Positions 26,891 through 43,713 of a DNA stretch of 64,000 nt are shown here, piece by piece. The notes beneath the pieces were generated by a model, which searched no databases, was not told the origin of the DNA, and saw nothing but the letters and a program-made list of their open reading frames with translations. Source of the stretch: Hyphomicrobiales bacterium (GTDB lineage Bacteria > Pseudomonadota > Alphaproteobacteria > Rhizobiales > Methyloligellaceae); assembly GCA_021775555.1 (NCBI GenBank), contig JAJFHP010000067.1, forward strand, positions 32,722-96,721, given 5' to 3'. The translations under genes were made by a program, and so were the position numbers. Position 1 is the first letter of the stretch. Each line of letters starts with the position of its first letter.

Positions 26891-28339
26891 TTATTGCAGT
26901 TGCGCAACCGGTGCCAGCTGTTTGTCCAATGCCAACTTAATAACGGCCTCGATAGCCTTGAGAGGACCGGCGGTAATATCGCTGGTGGAAAAGACATCCA
27001 TTGGTACTTGGGGGGGTATGCCAGCTCCCTCCCAGGATTTGCGCCTGGCATCAAGATAGACTTCGTTCGACAGGCTCAAATTCCAGCCATTGGGCAGCGG
27101 CTTCCAGAGCATGTCCGATAAAGAGCCACGCGTCGTATCACCCACATGGGTCACGTTCGGCAGAGCGCGCATGGACATAGTGAAAATTTCTGCGGCGCTG
27201 ACGGTTATGTCGCTGGTAATCATGTAGACAGGCCCGGTGAAGCGATTCTTGCCCGTTGGCTCGATATAAATGGCCTGGGGCTCGTCTGCCTCACTGTCAC
27301 CAGCATATTTGTAGTAGCCGAGCGTGCGTTGTGCTGCGAAGCGTCCGGCAATTGTCCTCGCAACCTTGTCGAAACCACCATCATTGAGAGTGACATCCAC
27401 GATTACGGCGCGGGATCCTTTGAAAAGTGCCAGGGCCTTGTCCAGGGCCTTGTTTGTTACCTTGATATCCTCGTCTTCGACGTTATCGTCGTTGGCGAGA
27501 CCTATCATCGACTGGATGGCGATATATCCGATATCGCCGTCAACAATCCCGTATCTGATGGAACCGTTTGCTGTTTCACGTCCCTTGCCGCGCAACAATG
27601 CCTTGCCGATGTCCTTGTTCCAGACACGCGCGAGCCAGTCATCCACGAATTTTTCCGCATTCTTGCCCTTGCGCTCGGCCAGAGCGGTGAGGGCACCAAC
27701 CGTCTTTCCGGGGCGTGAATTGAGGACGACTTTCTGATCCTCGATTTTCGCCTCGATGCTGACATGGTCGTCGTCAATTTCTGAGATGATCCCCTTGATG
27801 ACATCCAGCAGCTCGGTGCTGGACATGTTTGCCTCGGCGCGCTTGGTGGCTGAATCGGCCATCGCCGGCCAGTTTATGTTGCGAGTATTGAAGAAGGCGT
27901 AGTGAGTGGAAAATATCTCAATGAAGCTGTCGAGCACCGATTTAGGTGTCGTATCCAGCTTCTCGTGACAGCTATCAGGCAGGCGATTCAGTCTGTCGAA
28001 TGTGAAAAAATAGGTGTCGTCTCCGAGCGGCATACGCATGGCTCGGCCATCGTCACTGATCTGGTGGTGCTGGGCCAGCTCTTTCAGATCCTCGGTTTCC
28101 TCATCATCCCTGATGCAGTGTCGGGTGCTTTCGTTATAAAAATAAACCTTGCCGTTCTTGATCTCTAGCAGCCAACCATAGCCTCTTGAGCGCCAGTAGC
28201 CGTTCAACTTGCCTGGTTCGCTACCATCCCTGAATGTCATGATGGGGCTGTTGGTCATGGCGATTGATGTATTTGCGGAGGCTAGGAGGCACATAAATGC
28301 GGCCGCTGAAAAGAACGTGCGAAACAATGCCCGTTTCAT
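26891..28339 (-). CDS. Exported S41-family peptidase
   Basis: Signal peptide MKRALFRTFFSAAAFMCLLASANTSIA; 'RAVIVDVTLNDGGFDKVARTIAGRF', 'GPVYMITSDITVSAAEIFTMSMRALPNVTHVGDTTRGSLSD' (Ser-Ala-Ala-Glu active-site region). Confidence 0.8.
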   Translation of the reverse strand: MKRALFRTFFSAAAFMCLLASANTSIAMTNSPIMTFRDGSEPGKLNGYWRSRGYGWLLEIKNGKVYFYNESTRHCIRDDEETEDLKELAQHHQISDDGRAMRMPLGDDTYFFTFDRLNRLPDSCHEKLDTTPKSVLDSFIEIFSTHYAFFNTRNINWPAMADSATKRAEANMSSTELLDVIKGIISEIDDDHVSIEAKIEDQKVVLNSRPGKTVGALTALAERKGKNAEKFVDDWLARVWNKDIGKALLRGKGRETANGSIRYGIVDGDIGYIAIQSMIGLANDDNVEDEDIKVTNKALDKALALFKGSRAVIVDVTLNDGGFDKVARTIAGRFAAQRTLGYYKYAGDSEADEPQAIYIEPTGKNRFTGPVYMITSDITVSAAEIFTMSMRALPNVTHVGDTTRGSLSDMLWKPLPNGWNLSLSNEVYLDARRKSWEGAGIPPQVPMDVFSTSDITAGPLKAIEAVIKLALDKQLAPVAQLQ

Positions 28340-28470
28340 GAATGTCTCCTCAACCGACACAAGGGGTCACTTTCCGACCAACCTTAACCCCCCATGGTCA
28401 GAATCGGCGAATTAGATGAATATCCCCCTGCCAAGATGTTGGCAAGTATCAAACACCTTTAGCTGGCGGC

Positions 28471-29373: not shown

Positions 29374-30594
29374 TTGGACGGATTGACCATCGCCCAGGAA
29401 CGAATCGCCAGCGAAGCACAGGAAAACACCGGACTTCTCGATCTGAGTTCGCTCGGCCTTGAAGTATTGCCGGAAGAGTTGTTTTCACTGAAGAATTTGC
29501 ATGCGCTGAATCTCGACGGGGCTTTCCGGAATGAAAATGTACAGCAGGGCAAGAGCGCCTCATCAGCCGCACAACATCCCGTAGAGGCACAAATTGAGCG
29601 CCTCGCCGCATTGCCGGAACTCCAGACATTGTCGGTGAGTGGTACGGGTCTGGTTGACTTGACCCCGCTCCAGGAGCTGCCAGCTCTGCAATCGCTGGAC
29701 TGCAAGCTTAACCCGGTAATCGATCTCACCCCGATCAAGGGTATGAAAAAGTTGCGATCGTTTTCCTGCGCGGCAACCGGTGTCATCGATCTCGCCCCGC
29801 TTCAGGATTTATCTTCTCTGCAGTTCTTAGCCTGCTCGGACACGGAGGTGAGAGATCTTGCACCGTTGAAGAAACTGGCGTCTCTGAAATCGCTGTTCTG
29901 TTCACATGCACCGGTAAACGATCTCGACCCGCTCAAGGGATTGGCAAAACTGCAATTGCTCTACTGCAACTTGAGCAATGTGCAGGACCTTTCCCCCCTT
30001 GAGAACCTGGCGGCGTTGCAGTCACTCCACTGCTCGCACACAATGATAAGCGACCTCACTCCGCTCAAGGACCTGTCAGCCTTGCAACAGCTTGACTGCT
30101 CACACACGCTGGTGAGTGATCTCACCCCGCTCAAAGGCCTGTCGGCCCTGCAAAAGCTTGAATGCATGCATACCCAGGTAAGCGACCTTTCCCCTCTCAA
30201 AGGTTTGACAGCCCTGCAAGTGCTTAAATTCGCGGAAACGGCGGTTAGGGATCTCACTCCGCTCAAGGGCCTGTCATCTCTGCAAGAGCTAAAATGCTCA
30301 CGTACCCCGGTGAGTGATCTCACCCCGCTCAAGGGGCTTTCATCCCTGAAAAAACTCAATTGCTCACGAGCGCCTGTGAACGACCTAACCCCGATCAAGG
30401 ACCTGCCGGCCCTGCAATCGCTTGACTGTTCAGGATGCCTGCTGGTGCCACCACCAGAAAATTTCTGGCTCATGCCAACCTTGTCGGAATTGATCCTCCA
30501 TAAAACCCAGATTTCAGGCATTCCCGCCTGGGTGCTTTCACAAAACGACGGCGACGATTGCCTGGAATCCCTTCGCGCGCATGTTCGTGTTTAA
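29374..30594 (+). CDS. Cytosolic-type leucine-rich repeat protein with 12 x 22-aa repeats, one Cys per repeat
   Basis: TTG start after gaggagg; repeats DLTPLKGLSALQKLECSHTxVS. Confidence 0.82.
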   Translation: MDGLTIAQERIASEAQENTGLLDLSSLGLEVLPEELFSLKNLHALNLDGAFRNENVQQGKSASSAAQHPVEAQIERLAALPELQTLSVSGTGLVDLTPLQELPALQSLDCKLNPVIDLTPIKGMKKLRSFSCAATGVIDLAPLQDLSSLQFLACSDTEVRDLAPLKKLASLKSLFCSHAPVNDLDPLKGLAKLQLLYCNLSNVQDLSPLENLAALQSLHCSHTMISDLTPLKDLSALQQLDCSHTLVSDLTPLKGLSALQKLECMHTQVSDLSPLKGLTALQVLKFAETAVRDLTPLKGLSSLQELKCSRTPVSDLTPLKGLSSLKKLNCSRAPVNDLTPIKDLPALQSLDCSGCLLVPPPENFWLMPTLSELILHKTQISGIPAWVLSQNDGDDCLESLRAHVRV

Positions 30595-30694: not shown

Positions 30695-30758
30695 TCTCGT
30701 CAGATGAGGCATACTTATCTTCAGGGTGTCTCATCAAATTGAAATTGAAAGCGCAACA

Positions 30759-32708
30759 ATGACCGATAAAGCCGCCCCGATTGTAAATTTGCAGCAAGAC
30801 CAGCCCGCCGCATTCGCGCATGTCTATGAAGGTCCTTCCGGCACATGGATTGTTCAGGACGACATGGATAGCCGTGGTGGAATGTTCACCAACCGCAAAG
30901 CTGCAATGAAGTTTGTGGACGGTGAATTTGGTCCTGAGACGAAAATCATTTCCTCAGCGCCGGCAACGGACGCGATTGACACGGATTCACCTATCCCAAG
31001 CAACCAGCAGATCGTACCGCACACCCGGCATCGTTATGAAGTTCATGACGGGCAGGTTACGTGGTCAAAAATTGCAGATGGTTCAGCCCAGGGTGATGTT
31101 TTCGATGGTGAAATCAGCAGTAAAGGATGGGACGAGGCCGCCCATGCCGTAGCAGACGCGGCGAATATGGAAGGAAGCTGGGCGGCAGCTGCGAAGCTTC
31201 TGATCGAGCAGTCCGGACAGGATGCTGGCAAAAGCTCGAAGACGAAGTCCAAAGGCTCCAACGGGAAAGATCAGAAAGACAACACTTTCTCCCTGGCAAG
31301 TGAGGGTGAAGGCCAGCCCCAAAACGAAGTGTTTGAGCATCTTGAATCCAACGTTCAATCCTATGCCCGTGCCTTTCCGCGCATTTTCAACAAGGCAGTG
31401 GGGACGACGATCTGGGACAAGGATGGCCGGCCCTATATCGATTTTCTCGCCGGGGCCGGGTCGCTAAATTTCGGACATAACAATCCCGCAATAAAATCCT
31501 CGCTCATTGAATATATGCAGAGTGACGGCATCACTCATGGACTCGATTTCCACACTGTGGCCAAGGAGAAATTCCTGACGGCCATGGACGAGATCATTCT
31601 CAAGCCACGCGGTCTCGATTATGTCATTCAGTTTACCGGCCCGACTGGCACCAATGCAGTCGAAGCCGCTTTGAAGATCGCCCGCAAAGTTACCGGCAAC
31701 ACCAACATCATCAGTTTCACCAACGGGTTCCACGGCGTTTCCATGGGGGCCTTGTCCATTACTGGAAATGAAACGCTCCGCGCCGCAGCCGGTGTGCCGC
31801 TGGGTGGCGCCACCTCGATGCCTTATGACCGGTACATGGGAGAAGATGTTGACACGATCTCCTATCTCGAACGCGTGCTTGATGACCCTTCCAGCGGTAT
31901 CGACGCCCCTGCTGCAATTATTCTTGAGATCATCCAGGGCGAAGGCGGGCTGAATATGGCCCGCGTCGAATGGCTCCAAAGCCTGCAGGCCTTGTGCAAC
32001 AAGAGAGAAATTCCGCTCATCGTAGATGACATCCAGGCCGGGTGCGGGCGCTCTGGAACATTCTTCAGCTTCGAAGAAGCCGGCCTCAAACCCGATATCG
32101 TGACTTTGTCCAAATCCTTGTCCGGATACGGACTGCCATTCTCTGTAGTGCTCATCAGGCGCGATCTGGACCAGTGGAGTCCCGGCGAGCATAACGGCAC
32201 GTTCCGGGGAAACAACCCGGCGTTTATCACTTCAGCCAGGATGCTTGAGCTCTACTGGAAAGATGGCAAGTTCGAGAATGAACTGAAGAAGAAGAGCGCG
32301 CATCTGCGCAAGCGGCTGCTGGCCATGGTCGAACAGCATCCCGATGATCTGATTGACGTCAAGGGGCGCGGCTTCATGATCGGTGTGCGCTGCGTCGACC
32401 CGGACCAGGCGGCAAAGGTGACAAGGAATGCGTTTACCGAAGGCCTGATCATCGAGCGCTGCGGTCCCAGGGACGAAGTCGTCAAATGCATGATGCCGCT
32501 GACGACCACGATGGAAGAAATGGACCAGGGTCTGGATATTCTCGAGCGCGTGTTCGAGGGCATGTTCAGCCGGGAAGCATGGGACAAGAATGTCCATGAT
32601 ATCTCCGACTCTGAAAGCCTTAGTGGGTGCTGGGAGGTTGCAGCCCAGCTTCTTATCACGCATGCCGACCAGACACCCGAGAGCGGGACCAAGGGCAAGA
32701 CAGGCTGA
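30759..32708 (+). CDS. Diaminobutyrate--2-oxoglutarate transaminase (EctB/Dat type, class III) with about 190-aa N-terminal extension and extra C-terminal module
   Basis: 'FLAGAGSLNFGHNNPAIKSSLIEYMQSDGITHGLDFHTVAKEKFL...FTGPTGTNAVEAALKIARKVTG...IVDDIQAGCGRSGTFFSFEEAGLKPDIVTLSKSLSGYGLP...GEHNGTFRGNNPAF'. Confidence 0.88.
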   Translation: MTDKAAPIVNLQQDQPAAFAHVYEGPSGTWIVQDDMDSRGGMFTNRKAAMKFVDGEFGPETKIISSAPATDAIDTDSPIPSNQQIVPHTRHRYEVHDGQVTWSKIADGSAQGDVFDGEISSKGWDEAAHAVADAANMEGSWAAAAKLLIEQSGQDAGKSSKTKSKGSNGKDQKDNTFSLASEGEGQPQNEVFEHLESNVQSYARAFPRIFNKAVGTTIWDKDGRPYIDFLAGAGSLNFGHNNPAIKSSLIEYMQSDGITHGLDFHTVAKEKFLTAMDEIILKPRGLDYVIQFTGPTGTNAVEAALKIARKVTGNTNIISFTNGFHGVSMGALSITGNETLRAAAGVPLGGATSMPYDRYMGEDVDTISYLERVLDDPSSGIDAPAAIILEIIQGEGGLNMARVEWLQSLQALCNKREIPLIVDDIQAGCGRSGTFFSFEEAGLKPDIVTLSKSLSGYGLPFSVVLIRRDLDQWSPGEHNGTFRGNNPAFITSARMLELYWKDGKFENELKKKSAHLRKRLLAMVEQHPDDLIDVKGRGFMIGVRCVDPDQAAKVTRNAFTEGLIIERCGPRDEVVKCMMPLTTTMEEMDQGLDILERVFEGMFSREAWDKNVHDISDSESLSGCWEVAAQLLITHADQTPESGTKGKTG

Positions 32709-32732
32709 AGATAATGCTCGGCAAAACTTGAT

Positions 32733-32773
32733 GAACCGGGTGCCAGACGGATAGTCTCGTGGCCATCCGGTTC
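32733..32773 (+). promoter_or_regulatory. Stem-loop in the aminotransferase-synthetase gap (possible attenuator/terminator)
   Basis: GAACCGG-gt-GCC-AGAC-ggata-GTCT-cgt-GGC-cat-CCGGTTC followed by tttcgtt; 14 complementary bp read directly. Confidence 0.55.
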
Positions 32774-32854
32774 TTTCGTTGAATTCCATACTTTACCGGT
32801 TAGCAACAGCGTTGTGTACGGGCAGCCGTGTGCAGGCAAATTGGGTGAGGGCAC

Positions 32855-35800
32855 ATGCTTATCTGCAAGGGGGCCGATAATTCCATTCGCTGGAAAGAAG
32901 GCGAACGGCTCGACCATCTGTTCGAAGCCCGGTGTGATGAGCTGGATAGTGCCAGCGGCGGCACACATCCAGCGGTAATCACCGATGAGAAAGTTTACAC
33001 CTTCCGTGATCTGGACAACCGCGCCAACCAGGCGGCGCGATACCTGATCGCGCAGGGCGTCAAGTCCGGTGACAAGGTTGGCCTGCTGTTCGACAAGGGC
33101 GTTGAGACCTACATCGCGTTGCTGGCGGTGCTGAAGGTCAATGCCGCCTATGTGCCTTTCGACGGCGGTTTTCCGAACGACCGGATTGCCTTCATCATGG
33201 AAGACGCCGGCGTGAAGGTGATGCTCACCCAGTCCGGCTACAAGGACAAGGTTTCTGAATTCGATGTGCTGACGGTTTATCTCGACAGTGCTTCGGACGA
33301 ACTCGACAAGCTGGACACTGCCCGCCTGAGTGAAAAAGAGAAAGGCAAACCGAAAGACGAAATCGCCTATCTCATCTACACCTCAGGTACCACGGGCCAG
33401 CCCAAGGGTGTTGTCATCGAACATGCCAGCATCTGCAATTTCGTGCGCGTGGCGGCGGAGATTTACGGCTACGGCCCCGATGACCGCGTTTACCAGGGAA
33501 TGACCATTGCGTTTGATTTCTCGGTCGAGGAATTGTGGGTGCCTCTGCTCGCTGGTTCAGCGCTGGTTCCGGCGAAAGCTGGCGCCAGCCTCGTGGGCGA
33601 TGACCTGGCTGACTACCTGCTGGAGCATAAAGTGACCGGGTGGGCCTGTGTCCCCACATTGCTGGGGACAATCGAGAAAGATCTGCCGGACCTGCGCCTC
33701 CTGATTGTCTCAGGCGAGGCCTGCCCGCAAAACCTGGTGACACGCTGGGCGCTCGACGGGCGCGTGATCCTGAATGCCTACGGACCAACTGAAGCGACCG
33801 TCACCTGCACGCTCACGGAATTATTGCCTGACAAGCCCGTCACCATCGGCGGACCGCTGCCGACATACACCATCGTCATTCTTGACCCCGACAAGCCTGA
33901 AGAAGTGCCCGAAGGCGGGATGGGCGAGATTGGAATCGCCGGCATTGGGTTGGCCCAGGGCTATCTGAAACGCCCTGAACTCACAGAAGAAAAGTTCATC
34001 TCCGATTTTCTCGATATCCCCAATAATCCATCGAAACGAATTTACCGGTCAGGCGACCTGGGGTGCATCAACAAGGATGACGAGGTTGAGTTTCATGGCC
34101 GCATCGACACCCAGGTCAAGATCCGCGGTTACCGTATTGAGTTGACCGAGATCGAGTCGGTGCTGATGGAGTTTCCGCATATCTCAATGGCGGTCGTGGA
34201 TACCTATGAAGCAGAGCCCGGCGCTGTTGAACTCGTCGCCTATTACGCCCTGAACAAGGGTCATGACGCTATCGAACATTCGGAAATTGCCGAAACGCTT
34301 CGTGGCCGCATGCCCGGTTACATGGTGCCGGCCTACATTGAGCAGCTGGACGTCATCCCGATGACGCCGAGTAATAAGGCCGACCGCAAGGCCCTGCCGG
34401 AACCAAAAGGTCCGCGAGTTGGTGCCGGTGGCGGCGAATATGTGGCCCCGGCGAATGAAACCGAAGAGACGCTCGCCAAAACCCTTGCCGGTGTCATGAA
34501 GGTGGATGAGATTTCTGCCGTGGCAAACTTTTTCCAGGAACTGGGTGCGCACTCGCTGCTCATGGCGCGTTACTGCGCCGAGATCAGGAAGATAGAGGGC
34601 ATGCCGGATGTTGCCATGCGCGACGTCTATCTCAACCCGACCATCGTGGAACTGGCCAATTTTGTCAGCTCCTCTGGTGAGGTGACACCTCTTGCCAAGA
34701 GGGAGGAGCAATACCGGATTCCCTCCAATCTGGAATATTATGGATGTGGCGCGCTTCAGCTCCTGTTCTATTTCGCTTACGGATTGCTGACATTCTGGGT
34801 CCTCGTTACCGGGTTCCATTGGACATACTCAGCTATCAACGAACCGCTTGAACTTTACGTCCGAATTGTCACCTTCCTGATTGCCAGCTATTTGGGATTC
34901 AGCATTTTTCCAATCGCCATGAAGTGGCTTCTGGTAGGCAAATGGAAGCAGGAGAAGTTTCCAATCTGGAGCTTGCGTTACTTCCGCTTCTGGATGGTCA
35001 AATCTCTTGTCTCAACTTCGCCAATGGCCATTTTCCCAGGCGGCCCGGTCTACAATGTTTACTTGCGGCTGCTCGGAGCGAAAATCGGACGAAATGTGAT
35101 ACTAGGCTCCAGTGCGCCCATCTGTTCTGACCTGTTTGTCATAGGTGACAACACGATCATTCGGCACAAGTCCCTGCTTTCGGGATACAAGGCCGAGTCC
35201 AATTATATCCACACCGGTCCGATCCATATCGGAGCCCAATCCTTCGTTGGTTCTGGAAGCGTGCTGGAAATTGACACCGTGATGGAGGATGACACCCAGC
35301 TTGGTCACGCATCTGCGCTTCATCGCGGTCAGCGCATCACGCAAGGTAAGCATTATCACGGCACGCCGGCAGAGGAGACAAAAGCAGACTATTGCTCGGT
35401 CGAGCCCATGTCCTGCACCGCGCTGCGCAGATGGCTTTACACTATCGCGCTGGCGATCCCGCTCTTTGCCGTCATGGCTCCACTCACAATCATGGCGCTG
35501 TTTTACCTTTTCCCCTATGTGCTCGTCTTCGCGTCGGTGGGTTCTCTGAATTATGAGTCGCCGCTTTCGGTTTTTCTCGCGCTCGCCCCGGGGGTTTTAC
35601 TCGTTTGCATAATTCTCTTCGTTACGATGTTTGTGCTCGGCACATTGATGGTCAGTCTTATCCCCAGACTGCTCAATCTCTTCCTCACAGAGGGGAAAAC
35701 CTATGTGCTGTTCGGATTCCACTATTATATCCAGAGCATCATTTCTGCGTTTAGTAATATTCCTGCCTACAACATCCTGTTTGGCGACAGCTCCTATATC

Positions 35801-36898
35801 GTCCACTATCTGAAATGGGTTGGATACAAACTGAACCGAGTCGAACAGACAGGCTCGAATTTCGGATTCGACCAGAAACACGACAATCCCTTCATGTGTG
35901 ACATCGGCAGCAGCACTATGGTTTCCGACGGGCTGATGATGATCAATGCACAAGCCTCAAGCACCTCTTTCAGACTTGAACATGTGAAGATTGGCGACCA
36001 CAATTATCTGGGAAATGACATCCTCTATCCTGCCAATGGCAAGACCGGTGTGAATGTTCTCCTGGGCACCAAGGTCATGATCCCCATCGACGGGCCAGTC
36101 CGGGAAAATGTTGGCCTGCTGGGGTCACCCCCTTTTGAAATCCCACGTGTGGTTAGCAGGGACAAAGAACTGAGTGAATTCATTGATCCGAAATCGAAAC
36201 AGGATCTTATTGCGCGGAAAAATCGGACCAACCTGGCGACAATGGTCATGTACCTGTCAATCAATTTTCTGATGTTCTTTTTTGCCATGCTGACCGGCTA
36301 TACCGCAGTTCTGTACTATCCGGTCTATGGCATTGGGCTATTTCTGGCCTATGGCGCCTTCGTCACCATATTCACGATCCTGTATTACGCCTTTATTGAA
36401 AAGGCGAGCATGTACTTTGGACATCTCAAACCGTTGGAGGTGTCTATGTATGATCCTGATTTCTGGTTCCATGAGCGTCACTGGAAATTGAGCGAACATG
36501 GATTGATGAGATTGTTTGCAGGAACGCCATTCAAGAACATCATCACCCGCTTGCTTGGCGTTAAACTGGGCAGAAAAGTTTTCGATGACGGTGCTGCAAT
36601 CGTTGACAGGACGCTGATCGAGGTCGGTGACTACTGCAACCTGAACGTTAAGTGCCTGATCCAGGGCCACTCTCTTGAAGAAGGAGCGTTCAAGTCAGGT
36701 CGCATCAAGATCGGTAAGGGCTGCACCCTGTCATGCAACTCACTGGTTCATTATGGCGTGACCATGGGAGACAATGCTCTGCTAGGGCCGAACGCCTTTC
36801 TGATGAAGGGCGAAACGCTTGCACCCAATACCATCTGGGAAGGAAATCCGGCCCAGGCTGTCCGTGGGACTGAAGTTCGACAAGAGGCGGCGGAATAG
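32855..36898 (+). CDS. Single-module membrane NRPS of Pls (poly-epsilon-lysine synthetase-like) architecture: A-PCP-TM/hexapeptide (TIGR02353-like) terminal region
   Basis: A motifs LIYTSGTTGQPKG, NAYGPTEATV, YRSGDLG, GRIDTQVKIRGYRIE, NKADRKALP; PCP 'ELGAHSLLMAR'; about 5-6 hydrophobic segments interleaved with hexapeptide-like blocks; no canonical HHxxxDG condensation domain or thioesterase seen. Confidence 0.87.
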   Translation: MLICKGADNSIRWKEGERLDHLFEARCDELDSASGGTHPAVITDEKVYTFRDLDNRANQAARYLIAQGVKSGDKVGLLFDKGVETYIALLAVLKVNAAYVPFDGGFPNDRIAFIMEDAGVKVMLTQSGYKDKVSEFDVLTVYLDSASDELDKLDTARLSEKEKGKPKDEIAYLIYTSGTTGQPKGVVIEHASICNFVRVAAEIYGYGPDDRVYQGMTIAFDFSVEELWVPLLAGSALVPAKAGASLVGDDLADYLLEHKVTGWACVPTLLGTIEKDLPDLRLLIVSGEACPQNLVTRWALDGRVILNAYGPTEATVTCTLTELLPDKPVTIGGPLPTYTIVILDPDKPEEVPEGGMGEIGIAGIGLAQGYLKRPELTEEKFISDFLDIPNNPSKRIYRSGDLGCINKDDEVEFHGRIDTQVKIRGYRIELTEIESVLMEFPHISMAVVDTYEAEPGAVELVAYYALNKGHDAIEHSEIAETLRGRMPGYMVPAYIEQLDVIPMTPSNKADRKALPEPKGPRVGAGGGEYVAPANETEETLAKTLAGVMKVDEISAVANFFQELGAHSLLMARYCAEIRKIEGMPDVAMRDVYLNPTIVELANFVSSSGEVTPLAKREEQYRIPSNLEYYGCGALQLLFYFAYGLLTFWVLVTGFHWTYSAINEPLELYVRIVTFLIASYLGFSIFPIAMKWLLVGKWKQEKFPIWSLRYFRFWMVKSLVSTSPMAIFPGGPVYNVYLRLLGAKIGRNVILGSSAPICSDLFVIGDNTIIRHKSLLSGYKAESNYIHTGPIHIGAQSFVGSGSVLEIDTVMEDDTQLGHASALHRGQRITQGKHYHGTPAEETKADYCSVEPMSCTALRRWLYTIALAIPLFAVMAPLTIMALFYLFPYVLVFASVGSLNYESPLSVFLALAPGVLLVCIILFVTMFVLGTLMVSLIPRLLNLFLTEGKTYVLFGFHYYIQSIISAFSNIPAYNILFGDSSYIVHYLKWVGYKLNRVEQTGSNFGFDQKHDNPFMCDIGSSTMVSDGLMMINAQASSTSFRLEHVKIGDHNYLGNDILYPANGKTGVNVLLGTKVMIPIDGPVRENVGLLGSPPFEIPRVVSRDKELSEFIDPKSKQDLIARKNRTNLATMVMYLSINFLMFFFAMLTGYTAVLYYPVYGIGLFLAYGAFVTIFTILYYAFIEKASMYFGHLKPLEVSMYDPDFWFHERHWKLSEHGLMRLFAGTPFKNIITRLLGVKLGRKVFDDGAAIVDRTLIEVGDYCNLNVKCLIQGHSLEEGAFKSGRIKIGKGCTLSCNSLVHYGVTMGDNALLGPNAFLMKGETLAPNTIWEGNPAQAVRGTEVRQEAAE

Positions 36899-36913
36899 GC
36901 AGGTTTGCCTGAG

Positions 36914-37615
36914 ATGCAAAACGACCCCGCCAGTATCGTCACACTCCGGATCGCGACCACGGGGAAGCTCCTGGGACCGTCAGGCATTATCTGTCTCTCA
37001 GATGAAGAGAAAACCCATTCACACCGGTTGAGACAGGCGGGTGACCGGGAAAGGTTTCTGGCGGCGCGTACGCTCTTGCGCCATGCCCTGTCAGAAGAGA
37101 TGGACGGCAAAATACAACCAGAGCAATGGCGTTTCAGGGATAACCCAAATGGCAAGCCGGTGATGGCGCCTGGTTTTCCTCAACTGGAGTTCAATCTATC
37201 CCATACAGGTGACTGCGTTGCCGTTGCCATCAGTGCATCGGGACCGGTTGGTATCGATGTCGAGAGCGTCTCCAAAGACGCGGACCTTGAAATCGTTAGC
37301 GATGTGCTGAGCATGCGCGAACGCGAATATCTGTCACGGATGCAGGAACAGCAGAAATGGGAATCATTCCTGCAATTCTGGACCCTCAAGGAAGCCTGTG
37401 CAAAAGCGATGGGGCTCGGTGCATCGATCGATTTTCGTAGATTGGAGGTCAATCTTGGTCCTCTCAGCGTCAACGCACCAGAGGGCCTTCTCGGCACAGG
37501 TGAAACCTTCGATATTGAGAGTAGGGTGGTGGAACTGGATCATCATCCCTATCGTCTCGGTGTTGCGAAAATCACCTCAAATGCAGGAGAGACCTCCTTT
37601 TGCTTAAAGCCGTAA
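36914..37615 (+). CDS. 4'-phosphopantetheinyl transferase (Sfp type)
   Basis: 'VGIDVESVSKDADLE...FLQFWTLKEACAKAMGLG'. Confidence 0.9.
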   Translation: MQNDPASIVTLRIATTGKLLGPSGIICLSDEEKTHSHRLRQAGDRERFLAARTLLRHALSEEMDGKIQPEQWRFRDNPNGKPVMAPGFPQLEFNLSHTGDCVAVAISASGPVGIDVESVSKDADLEIVSDVLSMREREYLSRMQEQQKWESFLQFWTLKEACAKAMGLGASIDFRRLEVNLGPLSVNAPEGLLGTGETFDIESRVVELDHHPYRLGVAKITSNAGETSFCLKP

Positions 37616-37676
37616 GTGCCTTATTGAAGATGACCATTGTAACTGCAGATAACCAAAATATTTTGGAGCGTCTCTC

Positions 37677-38417
37677 ATGAGCGTCTCAGTTACATTCGCC
37701 GGTTCCGGTGATGCCTTTGGTTCAGGTGGCAGGCTTAATACCTGCATTCTGGTCGAAGCTCCGCAGATCACATTTGCGATCGACTTCGGCGCATCAAGCC
37801 TGGTTGCCCTCAATGCGCTTGGTATTCCCCACAACAGGATCGATCTCATTCTGCTGACGCATTTTCATGGTGATCATTGCGGTGGTGTATCTGCCCTGCT
37901 CATTGACGCCATGCTGGGCGCAAATCGTGAAACGCCTCTGACCATCGCCGGTCCCAAAAATACGGCTGAACATCTGCCGCGAGTTCAGGAAGCACTTTTC
38001 CCGGGGTCACAGGTCATGACACCGAAATTTGCGGTTGAGACCATCGACATGGAGACAATGGCATCCCATGAGATCAACGGACTGAAGGTTACGACCTATC
38101 CTGCTGTCCACACTGAGGCAACCAACCCAACATCTATGCGGGTTGAGGTCGCCGGCAAAGTTATTGCCTATACCGGTGACAGCTCCTGGACAGAACATAT
38201 GCCTGAGCTGGCGCGGGGTGCTGATCTGTTCATCAGCGAATGTTATTTTTTCTCCAAGAGCGTGCTCTTTCACATGAACTATCCTGATCTGGTGGAACAC
38301 AGGCATGAGCTTGATGCGAAACGCATTGTGCTAACCCATCTCGGCCCGGAAATGCTCAGGCATATGGATGATGTCCAGGAAGACTGTGCCTATGACGGGC
38401 TGGTGATCGAGCTTTGA
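37677..38417 (+). CDS. MBL-fold metallo-hydrolase
   Basis: 'LTHFHGDHCGG' HxHxDH-type motif; 'YTGDSSWTEHMPELARGADLFISECYF'; 'RIVLTHLGPEM'. Confidence 0.87.
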   Translation: MSVSVTFAGSGDAFGSGGRLNTCILVEAPQITFAIDFGASSLVALNALGIPHNRIDLILLTHFHGDHCGGVSALLIDAMLGANRETPLTIAGPKNTAEHLPRVQEALFPGSQVMTPKFAVETIDMETMASHEINGLKVTTYPAVHTEATNPTSMRVEVAGKVIAYTGDSSWTEHMPELARGADLFISECYFFSKSVLFHMNYPDLVEHRHELDAKRIVLTHLGPEMLRHMDDVQEDCAYDGLVIEL

Positions 38418-38591: not shown

Positions 38592-38754
38592 TTGAACTTG
38601 CTCACCTATTCTTATGAACGCGGCGCCATCCTGCACGCCTTGATTGATTGACAGAATGTTTGTCATGGCATCAATTGGCGTTGCTATTCATTCGCAAAGA
38701 CGTTTCACAGCAATCCGATGCCGGGGCTTTGAACCCCGATTATTGGGGGATAAA

Positions 38755-40050
38755 ATGCACAGCTCACCAATCGGGTATGGCGTTCGCTATACCGTTCTTT
38801 CGATATTTATTCTTGCTCTGTCGTTCGTCGCACCCTCCGCGGCAAAGGCTCAAACGCAGGTCAAAGACGTTCTGAAAACCTATTCCGGCATTGCCCATGC
38901 CGGATATGAGGATGCACTCATAACCGCTCGCACACTCCGCGCTGCGATCAAGGATTTTCTGGAAAATCCTAATGCGCAAACACAAAGAGCAGCCAAGGCA
39001 GCCTGGCTGTCCGCTCGCAACCCCTATCAGCAGACCGAAGCGTATCGTTTTGGTAACGCGGTGGTGGACGACTGGGAAGGCAAGGTGAATGCCTGGCCCC
39101 TGGATGAGGGCCTGATTGACTATGTGGCAGGTGAATACGGCACGCAGTCAGATGAAAACAAACTCTATGCAGCCAATGTGATCGCCAGGAAACGCATTAA
39201 TATTGGCGGCAGGTCAGTGGATACGCGCAAAATCACCAAGGCGCTGATCTCGAAGGTTCTGCATGAAGCAGGCGAGATCGAGGCGAATGTCGCCACCGGC
39301 TACCACGCGATTGAATTTCTGCTCTGGGGGCAGGATCTGAATGTGACGGGGCCAGGCGCCGGGAACCGTCCTCCAAACGATTTTAATCTGAAAAAATGCA
39401 CCAACGGCAATTGTGCCCGCCGCGCTGCATATCTGCGCGTCGCTACGGATCTTCTGATCGATGACCTGACATGGATGACCATGCAATGGGCGCCCAAAGG
39501 CGACGCTCGCAGGGAGCTTTTGAAGGCAGGTGATACGACCGGACTGACCAGAATTTTCACAGGTCTGGGTTCATTGTCCTATGGCGAGCTGGCGGGAGAA
39601 CGCATGCAGCTTGGCCTCATGGTGCATGACCCGGAGGAAGAACATGATTGTTTTTCCGACAACACCCACAATTCGCACTTCTTCGATGCTCTCGGCATTC
39701 GCAATGTCTATCTGGGGCGATACCGCCGGATCGACGGCAGCATTGTTTCCGGCCCCAGCGTGTCTGACCTGGTGCGTGAAAAGGATGTCGAAACCGACGC
39801 TGCCTTGCAGGCGCGTCTGAATGAAACCATTACGGTGATGCAGGTCATCGTGCACCGCGCCGAAACGCTTGAGGCGTATGACCAGATGATCAGCGAAGGA
39901 AATGATGCCGGGAACAAGGTCGTGCAGAATGCGATTGATGCATTGTTGAAGCAGACCCGCGCGATCGAGCGGGCAGTTTCCGTGCTTGACCTGCAGTCGA
40001 TAGCCTTTGAAGGTTCCGACAGTCTGGATGCCCCGGAAAGGGAAAAATAG
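38755..40050 (+). CDS. Imelysin-family (IrpA-like) periplasmic protein
   Basis: Signal peptide; 'GYHAIEFLLWGQDLN' GxHxxE motif; 'DCFSDNTHNSHFFDALGIRNVYLG'. Confidence 0.87.
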   Translation: MHSSPIGYGVRYTVLSIFILALSFVAPSAAKAQTQVKDVLKTYSGIAHAGYEDALITARTLRAAIKDFLENPNAQTQRAAKAAWLSARNPYQQTEAYRFGNAVVDDWEGKVNAWPLDEGLIDYVAGEYGTQSDENKLYAANVIARKRINIGGRSVDTRKITKALISKVLHEAGEIEANVATGYHAIEFLLWGQDLNVTGPGAGNRPPNDFNLKKCTNGNCARRAAYLRVATDLLIDDLTWMTMQWAPKGDARRELLKAGDTTGLTRIFTGLGSLSYGELAGERMQLGLMVHDPEEEHDCFSDNTHNSHFFDALGIRNVYLGRYRRIDGSIVSGPSVSDLVREKDVETDAALQARLNETITVMQVIVHRAETLEAYDQMISEGNDAGNKVVQNAIDALLKQTRAIERAVSVLDLQSIAFEGSDSLDAPEREK

Positions 40051-41553
40051 GTGATCCGTACCAGTTTCGTCTTCGCGGCTTTTGTTGCGGCCGTCGCGAT
40101 TCCCAATCTCGAGGCAAGGTCGGCTGACAACAGAGCTGGCGTGACGACTGAACTGCGCCCGACAAATGACTTCAGCAAGCTGGAGAAGGGGGAAGCGTAC
40201 CCTGGAGGAGATGCGACATCGCGCAAGAGCGTGGATAATGCAAACGCCTTTTCCCATTCCTCCGGAAATTTGCCGTTTCGCAAGGAACTCGATTTCAAGG
40301 TCGGCAACGGTATCTTCCGCAAGCTTTGGGTATCCGCGCCGTCATCCACCAAATCATCGGACGGGCTTGGGCCTCTCTACAATGCGCGATCGTGCCAGCG
40401 CTGCCATTTGAAGGATGGTCGTGGCCACACGCCGCAAGCCAATTTCCCGGACGATGACGCCACGTCGATGTTCCTGCGCCTGTCCATACCACCCGAGACG
40501 GAGGAACAGAAAAAGCTCCTCGCCGAACGAAAGATCTCCGTCGTGCCTGAGCCAACCTATGGCGGGCAATTGCAAGACTTCGCCATTCAGGGACATGACG
40601 CGGAAGGCAAGATGCATATCGATTATGCCGATGTGCAATTCCAGTTTCCTGATGGCAGCAAGGTGACGCTTCGCAAGCCCTCATATTCAATCGACAGGCT
40701 GGCCTATGGCCCGCTTCACTCAAAAGTCATGCTCTCACCGCGTGTCTCTCCACAGATGATCGGGTTGGGTTTACTCGAAGCGATACCTGAAATGCTCATC
40801 CGGGGGCTTGCAGACATGGACGACACGGATCGCAATGGTATTTCAGGGCGGCCCAATGAAGTGTGGTCGGCAGAGCATAAAAACATCATCGTCGGACGCT
40901 TTGGCTGGAAAGCGGGCAATCCCACCGTCAAGGCGCAGTCAGCCGGTGCATTTGAAGGCGATATCGGAATATCGACTCCCATGGCGCGCAATGCCTGGGG
41001 GGATTGCACGGACAAGCAATCCCACTGCCGTAAGGCGCCAAACGGAGCCTCACCTAAGATCGGGAATGTTGAGGCGGGAGAAAAATTCCTCGACCTCGTC
41101 GCCTTCTACTCCAGGAATCTCGCCGTACCCCGGCGGCGCACTCCGGACAGTCGAGAAGTCCTGGCCGGCAAAAAGCTGTTTTACGAGACGGGATGCGTGC
41201 AATGCCATCAACCGAAATTCAGGACAAGCACCCTGGAAGGCCAGCCGCATCTTTCGAACCAGTTGATCTGGCCCTATACCGATATGCTGTTGCATGACAT
41301 GGGCGAGGGGTTGGCGGACAATCGCCCCGAAGGCGTTGCCACGGGGCGCGAGTGGCGCACAGCGCCGCTATGGGGCATCGGGCTGACACCCATCGTCAAC
41401 GGCCACACTCAGTATCTGCATGATGGCCGCGCGCGTTCCCTGCTCGAGGCCATATTGTGGCATGATGGTGAGGCCGGACCTGCCCGGGACGCTTTTGCTG
41501 CCCTGGACAAGAAGGACCGTGACCGACTGATAGCCTTTGTGAATTCATTGTGA
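40051..41553 (+). CDS. Di-heme c-type cytochrome/thiol oxidoreductase-like (DUF1111)
   Basis: Two CxxCH (ARSCQRCHLKDGRG, GCVQCHQPKF); 'LLEAIPEMLIRGLADMDDTDRNGISGRPN'. Confidence 0.87.
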   Translation: MIRTSFVFAAFVAAVAIPNLEARSADNRAGVTTELRPTNDFSKLEKGEAYPGGDATSRKSVDNANAFSHSSGNLPFRKELDFKVGNGIFRKLWVSAPSSTKSSDGLGPLYNARSCQRCHLKDGRGHTPQANFPDDDATSMFLRLSIPPETEEQKKLLAERKISVVPEPTYGGQLQDFAIQGHDAEGKMHIDYADVQFQFPDGSKVTLRKPSYSIDRLAYGPLHSKVMLSPRVSPQMIGLGLLEAIPEMLIRGLADMDDTDRNGISGRPNEVWSAEHKNIIVGRFGWKAGNPTVKAQSAGAFEGDIGISTPMARNAWGDCTDKQSHCRKAPNGASPKIGNVEAGEKFLDLVAFYSRNLAVPRRRTPDSREVLAGKKLFYETGCVQCHQPKFRTSTLEGQPHLSNQLIWPYTDMLLHDMGEGLADNRPEGVATGREWRTAPLWGIGLTPIVNGHTQYLHDGRARSLLEAILWHDGEAGPARDAFAALDKKDRDRLIAFVNSL

Positions 41554-42629
41554 GATATATTCCTGTATTCATTGTGATAATCAGCCTTTTACCGGGCTTG
41601 GCGAGGGCCACGGAGTTTGATCATTCTGCCCTTGCACACCAGACGCTGGAGCAACATATCCGGCCCGGATATACGCAATTGCTAGCTGCCGCTAGGGGCC
41701 TTGAAAAGAACATTGGTACCCATTGCAGCGCTGCGCCCGGCAACACTCTTTCATCGGTAAAAAAAGCTTTCGGGTCGGCCGTGCTGGCATGGTCACGCAT
41801 CGAGCATCTGCGCTTTGGCCCCATCATGAAGAAGGCGCGCCATGCACGGATGGTCTACTGGCCGGATCGCAAGGGGCTGGGGCGTAAGCAGGTGGCGCGG
41901 GCGCTTGGCAAGCGCGATGCAAGTGTAACTGCACGCGAGAGTCTGGAAGGCAAAAGCGTGGCCCTGCAGGGCCTTGGTGCGCTTGAATATATTTTGGTCG
42001 CGAAGGGTAGCGAAAAGCTGTCCATTCCCGGTCCCGCCAGAACCCACCGCTGCTTGTTCATGAAGGCGATTGCCGCGAATATCGTGCTTATCTCGAAGGA
42101 GGTCCTGGACCAGTGGTCGGGAAGGCAAGGGTATGCGGCGACATTTATGCAGCCCGGTGCGAACAACCCAGCCTATCTTGAGCCAAAAGAAGTCACGCTG
42201 GAGATTGCCAAATCCTATCTCGTTGCTCTGGAAAGGGTAAGGGATATCCGGATTGCCGGGCCGCTGGGCTTGCAGCGCAAGAGCACCCGGCGCAAACCGG
42301 CGGTGTTTGAACGCAGCGGACTTTCAACGCGCGCCATTACCGCCAATCTTGAGGGCATACTCCACCTTTATGAGAAGGGCGGATTGATGGAACATATTGA
42401 GCGCCATGAAGCCGGGATGGGGAAAGGGATACAATACGACCTCAACTTATCCCTGAAGCAGCTGAAATCCATTTCTTTGCCCATGAAAGCCGCGGTCGAA
42501 GATCCGGATGCAGAAGACAAGTTGATGGCGATAGGCTTTCCACTCAAATCTGCACGCAAAGAAGCCGCCCGCGTTCTGACGCAAGCAGCGGGCCTGGCCC
42601 TGGGGTTTAATGCACTCGATGGAGATTGA
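41550..42629 (+). CDS. Second imelysin-family protein
   Basis: GTG start overlapping the previous stop; 'ALQGLGALEYILVAKGSE', 'RTHRCLFMKAIAANI'; context. Confidence 0.8.
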   Translation: MRYIPVFIVIISLLPGLARATEFDHSALAHQTLEQHIRPGYTQLLAAARGLEKNIGTHCSAAPGNTLSSVKKAFGSAVLAWSRIEHLRFGPIMKKARHARMVYWPDRKGLGRKQVARALGKRDASVTARESLEGKSVALQGLGALEYILVAKGSEKLSIPGPARTHRCLFMKAIAANIVLISKEVLDQWSGRQGYAATFMQPGANNPAYLEPKEVTLEIAKSYLVALERVRDIRIAGPLGLQRKSTRRKPAVFERSGLSTRAITANLEGILHLYEKGGLMEHIERHEAGMGKGIQYDLNLSLKQLKSISLPMKAAVEDPDAEDKLMAIGFPLKSARKEAARVLTQAAGLALGFNALDGD

Positions 42630-43713
42630 TCGCAGAACATTTCTGTTGAGTGGTGCAGGCTTGGCCGCCTGGCCGCTGTTACCTACCTACGCGCATGGGG
42701 AACCCCGGGAAATGTTCGCCGCGGCTCTTCGTGATCCAGATGGTGGTTACACCGCCTCGATATTCAGTGTTGAGGACGGTGAGGTTTCACGGGTCGCCCT
42801 GCCCGCGCGGGGGCATTCCTTTGCCATGCGTCCCGGCGCAGGCGAGTGCATTGCTTTTGCCCGCCGACCGGGAACATTTGCTGTCGTATTTGGTCCCGGA
42901 ATGGACCGCCCGCCTTTATGGTTTGCCGCGAACGCCGACCGGCATTTTTATGGCCATGGCGTGTTCTCCCGGGACGGGCGTTTGCTGTATTCCACCGAAA
43001 ATGATTTTGAGACCAGGCGCGGCATCATCGGGGTGCGTGATGCAACAAACGGGTATCGCCAGATCGATGAATTTGCATCGGGCGGAGTTGGTCCCCATGA
43101 CATTGCGCTGCTGGGGGATGGGCGTGTCCTCGTGGTGGCCAATGGTGGCATCCAGACCCACCCAGACAGGGGTCGGGAAATATTAAACCTCGAAACCATG
43201 GCTCCAAATCTTGTCTATATCGATACGCAAACTGGCGAAGTGCTGGAACGCCAGGAGTTGCCTAAAGGCCTGCATCAATTGTCGATACGCCACCTCACTG
43301 TGGCCAGGGGAGACAGGGTTGTGTTTGGCTGTCAGTACAAGGGACCGAGAAACGAGCAGCCCAACCTCATCGGATTTCACAAACGCGGAGAGGCGTTGAA
43401 ACTTGCTGAAATTCCCCATTCCGCAAATGTGCGGTTGAATGGATATGTTGGCTCGATTTGCGCAGACCGCTTTGGTGGGATTGTTGCCGCGACCTCGCCC
43501 AAGGGCGGCGTTGCGATCTATTTCGATGTTTCTAGTGAAAGCTTTTTGGGACTTGCGTCCTTTGCTGATGCGAGCGGTGCGGCAAGACGCAAGGCTGGCG
43601 GATTTCTGCTGACCAGCGGTTCGGGCAGGCTGGCTTGGGGACGCTCCGACAGAACGCAGCCTTTGGCGAGTGCGCTGGCTGGCGCGTGGGACAATCATGT
43701 GACGCGGCTGTAA
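42610..43713 (+). CDS. DUF1513-family protein with Tat-type signal
   Basis: 'IDRRTFLLSGAGLAAWPLLPTYA' twin-Arg; beta-propeller-like 'FGPGMDRPPLWF...RHFYGHGVFSRDGRLLYSTENDF'. Confidence 0.83.
   Translation: MHSMEIDRRTFLLSGAGLAAWPLLPTYAHGEPREMFAAALRDPDGGYTASIFSVEDGEVSRVALPARGHSFAMRPGAGECIAFARRPGTFAVVFGPGMDRPPLWFAANADRHFYGHGVFSRDGRLLYSTENDFETRRGIIGVRDATNGYRQIDEFASGGVGPHDIALLGDGRVLVVANGGIQTHPDRGREILNLETMAPNLVYIDTQTGEVLERQELPKGLHQLSIRHLTVARGDRVVFGCQYKGPRNEQPNLIGFHKRGEALKLAEIPHSANVRLNGYVGSICADRFGGIVAATSPKGGVAIYFDVSSESFLGLASFADASGAARRKAGGFLLTSGSGRLAWGRSDRTQPLASALAGAWDNHVTRL

Follow-up and report, generated by a model that had tools for sequence, protein, structure and literature searches.

An EctB-type transaminase beside a Pls-like synthetase in an alphaproteobacterium: a candidate locus for poly-diaminobutyrate

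Why should a transaminase of the EctB type lie beside a synthetase of the poly-lysine kind, and what would the two make together? The question is raised by a locus in a 64,000-nt stretch of DNA (hereafter the window) from a Hyphomicrobiales bacterium of the family Methyloligellaceae (GCA_021775555.1, contig JAJFHP010000067.1, positions 32,722-96,721). Four genes, identified by profile searches, follow one another on its plus strand: an EctB-type transaminase (ectB), a synthetase (pls), an Sfp-type 4'-phosphopantetheinyl transferase (PPTase), and a metallo-beta-lactamase (MBL)-fold hydrolase. An initial annotation, made from the letters alone, had placed these four genes correctly and had proposed that the transaminase supplies L-2,4-diaminobutyrate (Dab) to a Pls-like synthetase of poly- or oligo-Dab. 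That proposal is now supported by the profile matches, the absence of ectA from the genome, the substrate pocket, the recurrence of the ectB-pls pair across phyla, and the replacement of EctB by a Dat-type enzyme in some relatives. The product of the locus is quite probably cationic and built of Dab, as a homopolymer or an oligomer. Chance resemblance is not a concern, given TIGR scores above the curated thresholds and an ectB-pls pair that is met again in many genomes.

The synthetase (32855-36898, +; 1347 aa) consists of AMP-binding, AMP-binding_C, and PP-binding domains followed by a TIGR02353 domain, with no condensation (C) or thioesterase (TE) domain. As the annotation had suggested, it is a one-module enzyme of adenylation (A) and peptidyl carrier (PCP) domains ending in TIGR02353; the match to this profile spans residues 631-1333 and scores 687.3 bits against a cut-off of 423.1. 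Six hydrophobic segments arranged as three pairs are seen in the hydropathy profile. The hexapeptide-like blocks that had been noticed between the transmembrane (TM) segments are supported by Pfam, by an AlphaFold2 model, and by Foldseek. The model, built for the C-terminal 733 residues from a 17-sequence alignment, has a predicted local distance difference test score (pLDDT) of 85 and a predicted template-modelling score (pTM) of 0.86, and shows paired long helices and beta segments. Its Foldseek matches are maltose O-acetyltransferases and other hexapeptide acyltransferases (best E 3.2e-5), and the third repeat also resembles galactoside O-acetyltransferase by sequence (E 4e-7). The C-terminal domain is thus modeled as three TM-helix pairs alternating with three left-handed beta-helix segments, in agreement with the published AlphaFold model of PosA (PMC10522769). 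Three residues of the third repeat only, H1272, E1275, and K1280, are invariant in all 52 alignment rows that have a letter there, and the His is missing from the equivalent stretches of repeats one and two. From the model and the alignment we infer that H1272 may mark the sole condensation site of a pseudo-trimer.

The pocket code of the adenylation domain is DFEAISAVTK (D221, F222, E225, A264, I284, S286, A308, V316, T317, and K508), mapped by motif on GrsA/PosA numbering. In PosA, Asp at pocket position 1 and Glu at position 3 bind the substrate through its alpha- and side-chain amines, and position 2 has been proposed to set the substrate's chain length: Phe in synthetases that use 2,3-diaminopropionate (Dap) or Dab, Met in those for ornithine, and Ala in those for lysine (PMC10522769). 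D221 and E225 of the window enzyme fit this diamino-acid pair, and F222 is the Phe reported in poly-Dap (PDAP) and poly-Dab (PDAB) synthetases. Together they predict a short diamino acid as the substrate. By its A-PCP-TIGR02353 order, its TM pairs, and the pocket Asp/Glu, the enzyme is classed as a member of the Pls/PosA family of cationic homo-poly(amino acid) synthetases.

The supply of Dab is assigned to the transaminase. Its open reading frame (ORF; 30726-32708, +) can be read from GTG 30726, but ATG 30759 is the better start because the nearest relative, locus L066, begins at the same residue. The protein scores above the cut-offs of both TIGR02407 (EctB; 634.9 bits, cut-off 552.2) and TIGR00709 (459.9 bits, cut-off 401.6), which bears out its annotation as a Dab transaminase. 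The source genome has this one EctB-grade gene and no second. EctA was not matched at E 0.001 in a search of the assembly (97.5% complete), which did not extend to ectC. The ectoine-pathway reading was rejected on the absence of ectA, and with it the possibility, raised at the outset, that this is the sole transaminase of ectoine genes lying elsewhere. In the EctB tree, 14 pls-linked EctBs including that of the window form one clade (support 100/99) apart from the sampled ectoine EctBs. The remaining pls-linked EctBs are placed elsewhere, outside this clade; EctB was therefore likely recruited to pls more than once. An EctB in Mesorhizobium (L167:8044-10135) belongs to a separate clade and overlaps a downstream 299-aa gene with no family assignment, outside both ectoine and pls contexts.

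The EctB core occupies residues 201-610, and the long extension N-terminal to it (30759-31330) is unusual. The extension has no Pfam match at E 10, no second copy of it was found in the genome, and its AlphaFold2 model is fairly confident for a small part only. It is shared in part with Anderseniella EctBs and with a separate small ORF 5' of ectB in Yoonia (L083:6130-6513); the motif W-x-V-x-D-[DE]...GG-x-F...F-V occurs in all of these. A similar motif, GSW/GCW-x-x-AA-x-LLI, is found both within the extension and again near the C-terminus of the window EctB.

A pathway can be proposed from these parts. The EctB-type enzyme, judging from its family, would transaminate aspartate-4-semialdehyde to L-Dab, which, with no EctA, would not be acetylated onward to ectoine. 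The neighboring PPTase would load the carrier domain of the synthetase, and the adenylation domain would activate Dab and transfer it to the carrier. The membrane-anchored C-terminal domain, a predicted pseudo-trimer of left-handed beta-helices resembling hexapeptide acyltransferases, would then repeatedly pass the thioester-bound Dab to the gamma-amine of Dab or of the growing chain, giving gamma-linked poly-Dab. The L configuration is most likely because no Dab racemase gene is seen near the locus.

The pair of genes is widely conserved. A scan of genome contigs yielded 80 relatives of the synthetase at 49-69% identity. EctB directly adjoins pls in Alphaproteobacteria, in metagenome-assembled genomes (MAGs) of a Thiotrichaceae and a deltaproteobacterial (Myxococcota) organism, on a Skermanella plasmid, and in one MAG each of Planctomycetota, Verrucomicrobiota, and Actinomycetota; the MAG phylum names are those of the record titles, and binning errors are possible. 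The adjacency is kept across phyla between synthetases that are just ~50% identical. Of 199 genomes sampled from the window's order, 13 have an EctB above the cut-off and 4 have EctA; EctA is absent from all those in which pls is linked to EctB. The annotation had treated all four genes as one set. The expected co-conservation was found for ectB and pls, and for the PPTase in some relatives; the MBL gene is kept at the same place in L066 only.

Pocket position 6 varies with the neighborhood. All synthetases with a directly adjoining EctB have Ser there, whereas Gly takes its place, with no EctB alongside, in the large rhizobial set (Mesorhizobium, Rhizobium, Brucella, Rhodoplanes, and others). 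Among 45 loci, 25 Ser-type synthetases have a Dab transaminase and 2 do not; the corresponding Gly-type numbers are 0 and 18. Of 17 Ser-type genomes or records selected because a Dab transaminase adjoins pls, 15 contain an EctB scoring above the cut-off; the two exceptions are L070, in which the copy is cut by the contig end, and L119, which is Dat-type. The same holds for 2 of 17 Gly-type genomes, neither of which has a synthetase within the 17 kb taken around EctB. EctA occurs in 1 of the 17 Ser-type records, that of Leisingera daeponensis (the genome of L075), where the EctB that it adjoins is an additional copy, not the one linked to pls.

Some actinobacterial loci use another supplier. 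In Blastococcus (L119) a Dat-type Dab transaminase adjoins pls in place of EctB, and the pls-adjoining transaminase of Phytohabitans L142 groups with it on the tree. L142 was therefore not retained as a strictly EctB-linked locus; the Phytohabitans EctB lies upstream of the second pls (L170). Such replacement of EctB by Dat independently supports Dab as the monomer. A distant actinobacterial synthetase, L189 (33% identity), has the code DFECLSAVTK, which is also the one seen most often among the EctB-linked synthetases. The gene overlapping it is most like Dab transaminases, although both scores, 465.6 bits (PRK06938) and 397.8 bits (TIGR00709), fall just or well below the respective cut-offs. 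The nearest relatives of L189 have the code DFEY[LIV]GTVTK and no Dab transaminase. Class-III aminotransferases also adjoin pls in Rhizobium L137 and L138; that of L138, the one scanned, is not Dab-type. As a broader proposal, EctB may have left the ectoine pathway in several phyla to become the supplier of a separate group of poly-Dab synthetases, most of them non-actinobacterial, with Ser or Gly at position 6 separating the Dab-using enzymes from those using other short diamino acids; this is tentative, and only a little less likely to be right than wrong.

Two gene families were noted beside other synthetases. A GNAT-type acetyltransferase-like gene lies directly 3' of pls in many Gly-type rhizobial loci (for example L129:11984-13117; gene cluster spanning 35/64) and is annotated as GNAT in L012 and L016; self-resistance by acetylation is a possible function. 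A small gene with LALVYRGPAS.PGC.EAVA near its start adjoins several actinobacterial DFEY-type synthetases (L185:12893-13573, with neighbors in L183-L188), and has no NCBIfam match at E 1e-5.

Several points weigh against the assignment of poly-Dab. The pocket code alone fails to separate Dab from Dap, Phe being found at position 2 for both. The raw Fisher p for the association of Ser/Gly with a Dab transaminase is 1e-10, but it is inflated by kinship among the loci and is not relied on as proof; the tree shows two independent Ser/Gly changes only, both in the expected direction (sign test p 0.5). The link is thus suggestive, not proof, and the Ser-type loci L015 and L182 have no Dab transaminase nearby. 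The 146-bp gap between ectB and pls means that a single transcript is not assured; promoter and terminator scans gave results no better than chance level. Unlike the actinobacterial clusters, the locus has no aspartate kinase among the genes around it that were scanned with Pfam, a scan limited to the larger ORFs of the neighborhood. The locus is also missing from all six of the other genomes sampled in the window's family.

The monomer might instead be Dap or another diamino acid, with the Dab from EctB serving some other use or entering as a minor comonomer. The pockets do overlap: besides sharing the Phe, the A domain of the Streptomyces PDAP synthetase weakly activates Dab as well. Yet nearly all Ser-type synthetases, and none of the Gly-type ones examined, adjoin a Dab transaminase, which is EctB or, in actinobacteria, Dat; and neither the cysteine-synthase nor the ornithine-cyclodeaminase homologue used in PDAP production (PMC4668381) was identified adjoining the locus, so that Dap is an improbable monomer here. 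It is likewise unlikely that the C-terminal domain makes no free polymer and instead transfers a single activated Dab, or a short chain, to an acceptor in the membrane or at the cell surface. Transfer of that kind would suit a domain that is predicted to be membrane-embedded and whose model resembles hexapeptide-class acyl transfer enzymes, and the invariant C-terminal residues would be compatible with another acceptor as well. However, the characterized enzymes of the same architecture, Pls, PosA, the PDAP synthetases, and PddA, give free homopolymers, and no conserved candidate gene of an acceptor pathway stood out beside the ectB-pls pair.

An accidental neighborhood, in which EctB works in some different Dab pathway and has no connection with the synthetase, is very improbable. 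Orphan EctBs do appear to have other uses, as genomes of the order with EctB, without ectA, and without a linked pls (G428, G503, G533, and G553) indicate. The adjacency of ectB and pls at such low synthetase identity, and the separate, well-supported clade of the 14 pls-linked EctBs, argue against coincidence. Synthesis of poly- or oligo-Dab remains the preferred reading.

Characterized poly-Dab clusters provide the closest comparison. Those with a Dab transaminase are pddABCD of Streptoalloteichus hindustanus, for gamma-poly-D-Dab (PMC8225329), and pldA-dat-ask of Streptomyces celluloflavus, which makes gamma-poly-L-Dab (PMC8117764). Like the window locus, whose product is poly-Dab by prediction, both combine a single-module A-PCP-membrane synthetase with a Dab transaminase, and the mechanism proposed here would by analogy be the same in kind. 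The window locus differs in having an EctB-type transaminase rather than Dat, a PPTase after the synthetase, an alphaproteobacterial host, and neither an aspartate kinase nor a Dab racemase among the genes scanned nearby. A long branch of 1.82 changes per column separates its synthetase clade from the sampled actinobacterial Phe-type lineage, in a tree without PldA and PddA. PosA, the delta-poly-L-ornithine synthetase of Acinetobacter baumannii, shares the Gram-negative host, the domain order, and the pocket Asp and Glu, but it is encoded by a single-gene operon and has Met at position 2, in contrast to the Phe and the linked Dab transaminase and PPTase of the window (PMC10522769). Pls, the epsilon-poly-L-lysine synthetase of Streptomyces albulus, likewise joins A-PCP to a membrane domain whose six TM helices form three pairs; Ala occupies position 2 of its lysine pocket (PMC10522769), and its gene is clustered with a degrading peptidase and no transaminase (PMC8117764). 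The likeness to ectABC is confined to the EctB match above the TIGR02407 cut-off, the window genome having no ectA and its EctB falling outside the sampled ectoine EctBs.

The initial annotation treated this gene set as not known to be characterized in this type of bacterium. In part this needs correction, since pddABCD and pldA-dat-ask are known in actinobacteria; no characterized set was found for alphaproteobacteria or with EctB. Homologues with PDAP/PDAB-like pockets have been surveyed as widespread (PMC10522769), and such enzymes outside actinobacteria are therefore not in themselves new. Searches of the open-access literature for EctB with poly-lysine-type synthetases, or for such synthetases in alphaproteobacteria, returned nothing. 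What appears to be new is the EctB supplier, a link undescribed in the literature searched, together with the mostly non-actinobacterial hosts and the deeply separate synthetase clade.

Cationic homopolymers such as poly-lysine serve as food preservatives. To our knowledge, the proven producers are nearly all actinobacteria, with some fungi and one Acinetobacter enzyme, and poly-Dab polymers have been proven in actinobacteria only. Antifungal and antiviral activities have been reported for poly-Dab (PMC8117764). The locus and its counterparts in other phyla open a way to poly-Dab in Gram-negative bacteria that can be put to the test; the candidate roles of the product are antimicrobial, antiviral, and in surface or biofilm functions. 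The locus and these counterparts also offer a rule for substrate prediction with built-in controls, Ser-type versus Gly-type pockets and EctB versus Dat as supplier. If the rule is true, a single residue could be enough to predict which class of product many still unstudied loci make, those of the large Gly-type clade of rhizobia among them. Furthermore, with a second use of EctB in view, an orphan ectB should be assigned to ectoine synthesis only with caution.

The features of the locus are collected in Table 1. The PPTase gene begins 6 bp past the end of pls, and its Sfp type, expected from the annotation, is supported by both of its profile matches. The sole other gene of the ACPS family in the genome is a 148-aa frame, the size of AcpS, which leaves this PPTase as the only Sfp-type one found there. 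A PPTase directly adjoins pls in seven relatives and is an optional part of the gene set.

Table 1. Coordinates (window numbering) and supporting evidence of the features of the candidate poly-Dab locus
Feature	Position	Strand	Evidence and remarks
EctB-type L-2,4-diaminobutyrate:2-oxoglutarate transaminase	30759..32708	+	TIGR02407; ~190-aa N-terminal extension
Adenylation domain	32855..34390	+	TIGR01733 400.7 bits, above curated cut-off; pocket DFEAISAVTK
Peptidyl carrier domain	34469..34666	+	PF00550 24.9 bits, residues 539-604; phosphopantetheine site in LGAHSL starting at residue 563
C-terminal polymerizing domain (TIGR02353), predicted	34745..36853	+	Profile, AlphaFold2 model, Foldseek, conservation
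Sfp-type 4'-phosphopantetheinyl transferase	36905..37615	+	PF01648 59.9 bits, PF22624 41.0 bits; TTG start, ATG 36914 alternative
MBL-fold metallo-hydrolase	37677..38417	+	PF12706 80.4 bits; adjacent, membership in system not established

The MBL gene was rejected as a member of the system for want of support. L066, which alone retains it, is syntenic with the window over a whole 17-kb block that extends from an S41 peptidase gene to a DUF1513 gene. The S41-family peptidase (26891-28360, -) has homologues near the EctB-linked pls in L066 (72%), L070 (43%), and Skermanella L014 (29%), and at the contig edge in L081; none was found near the Gly-type loci searched. A role in polymer processing or self-protection is possible. 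Immediately 5' of ectB is a gene for a leucine-rich-repeat protein (29374-30594, +), the L066 homologue of which is 78% identical. On the other side of the locus, a row of imelysin, di-haem oxidoreductase, second imelysin, and DUF1513 genes (38644-43713, +), syntenic in L066, looks like an iron-uptake cluster.

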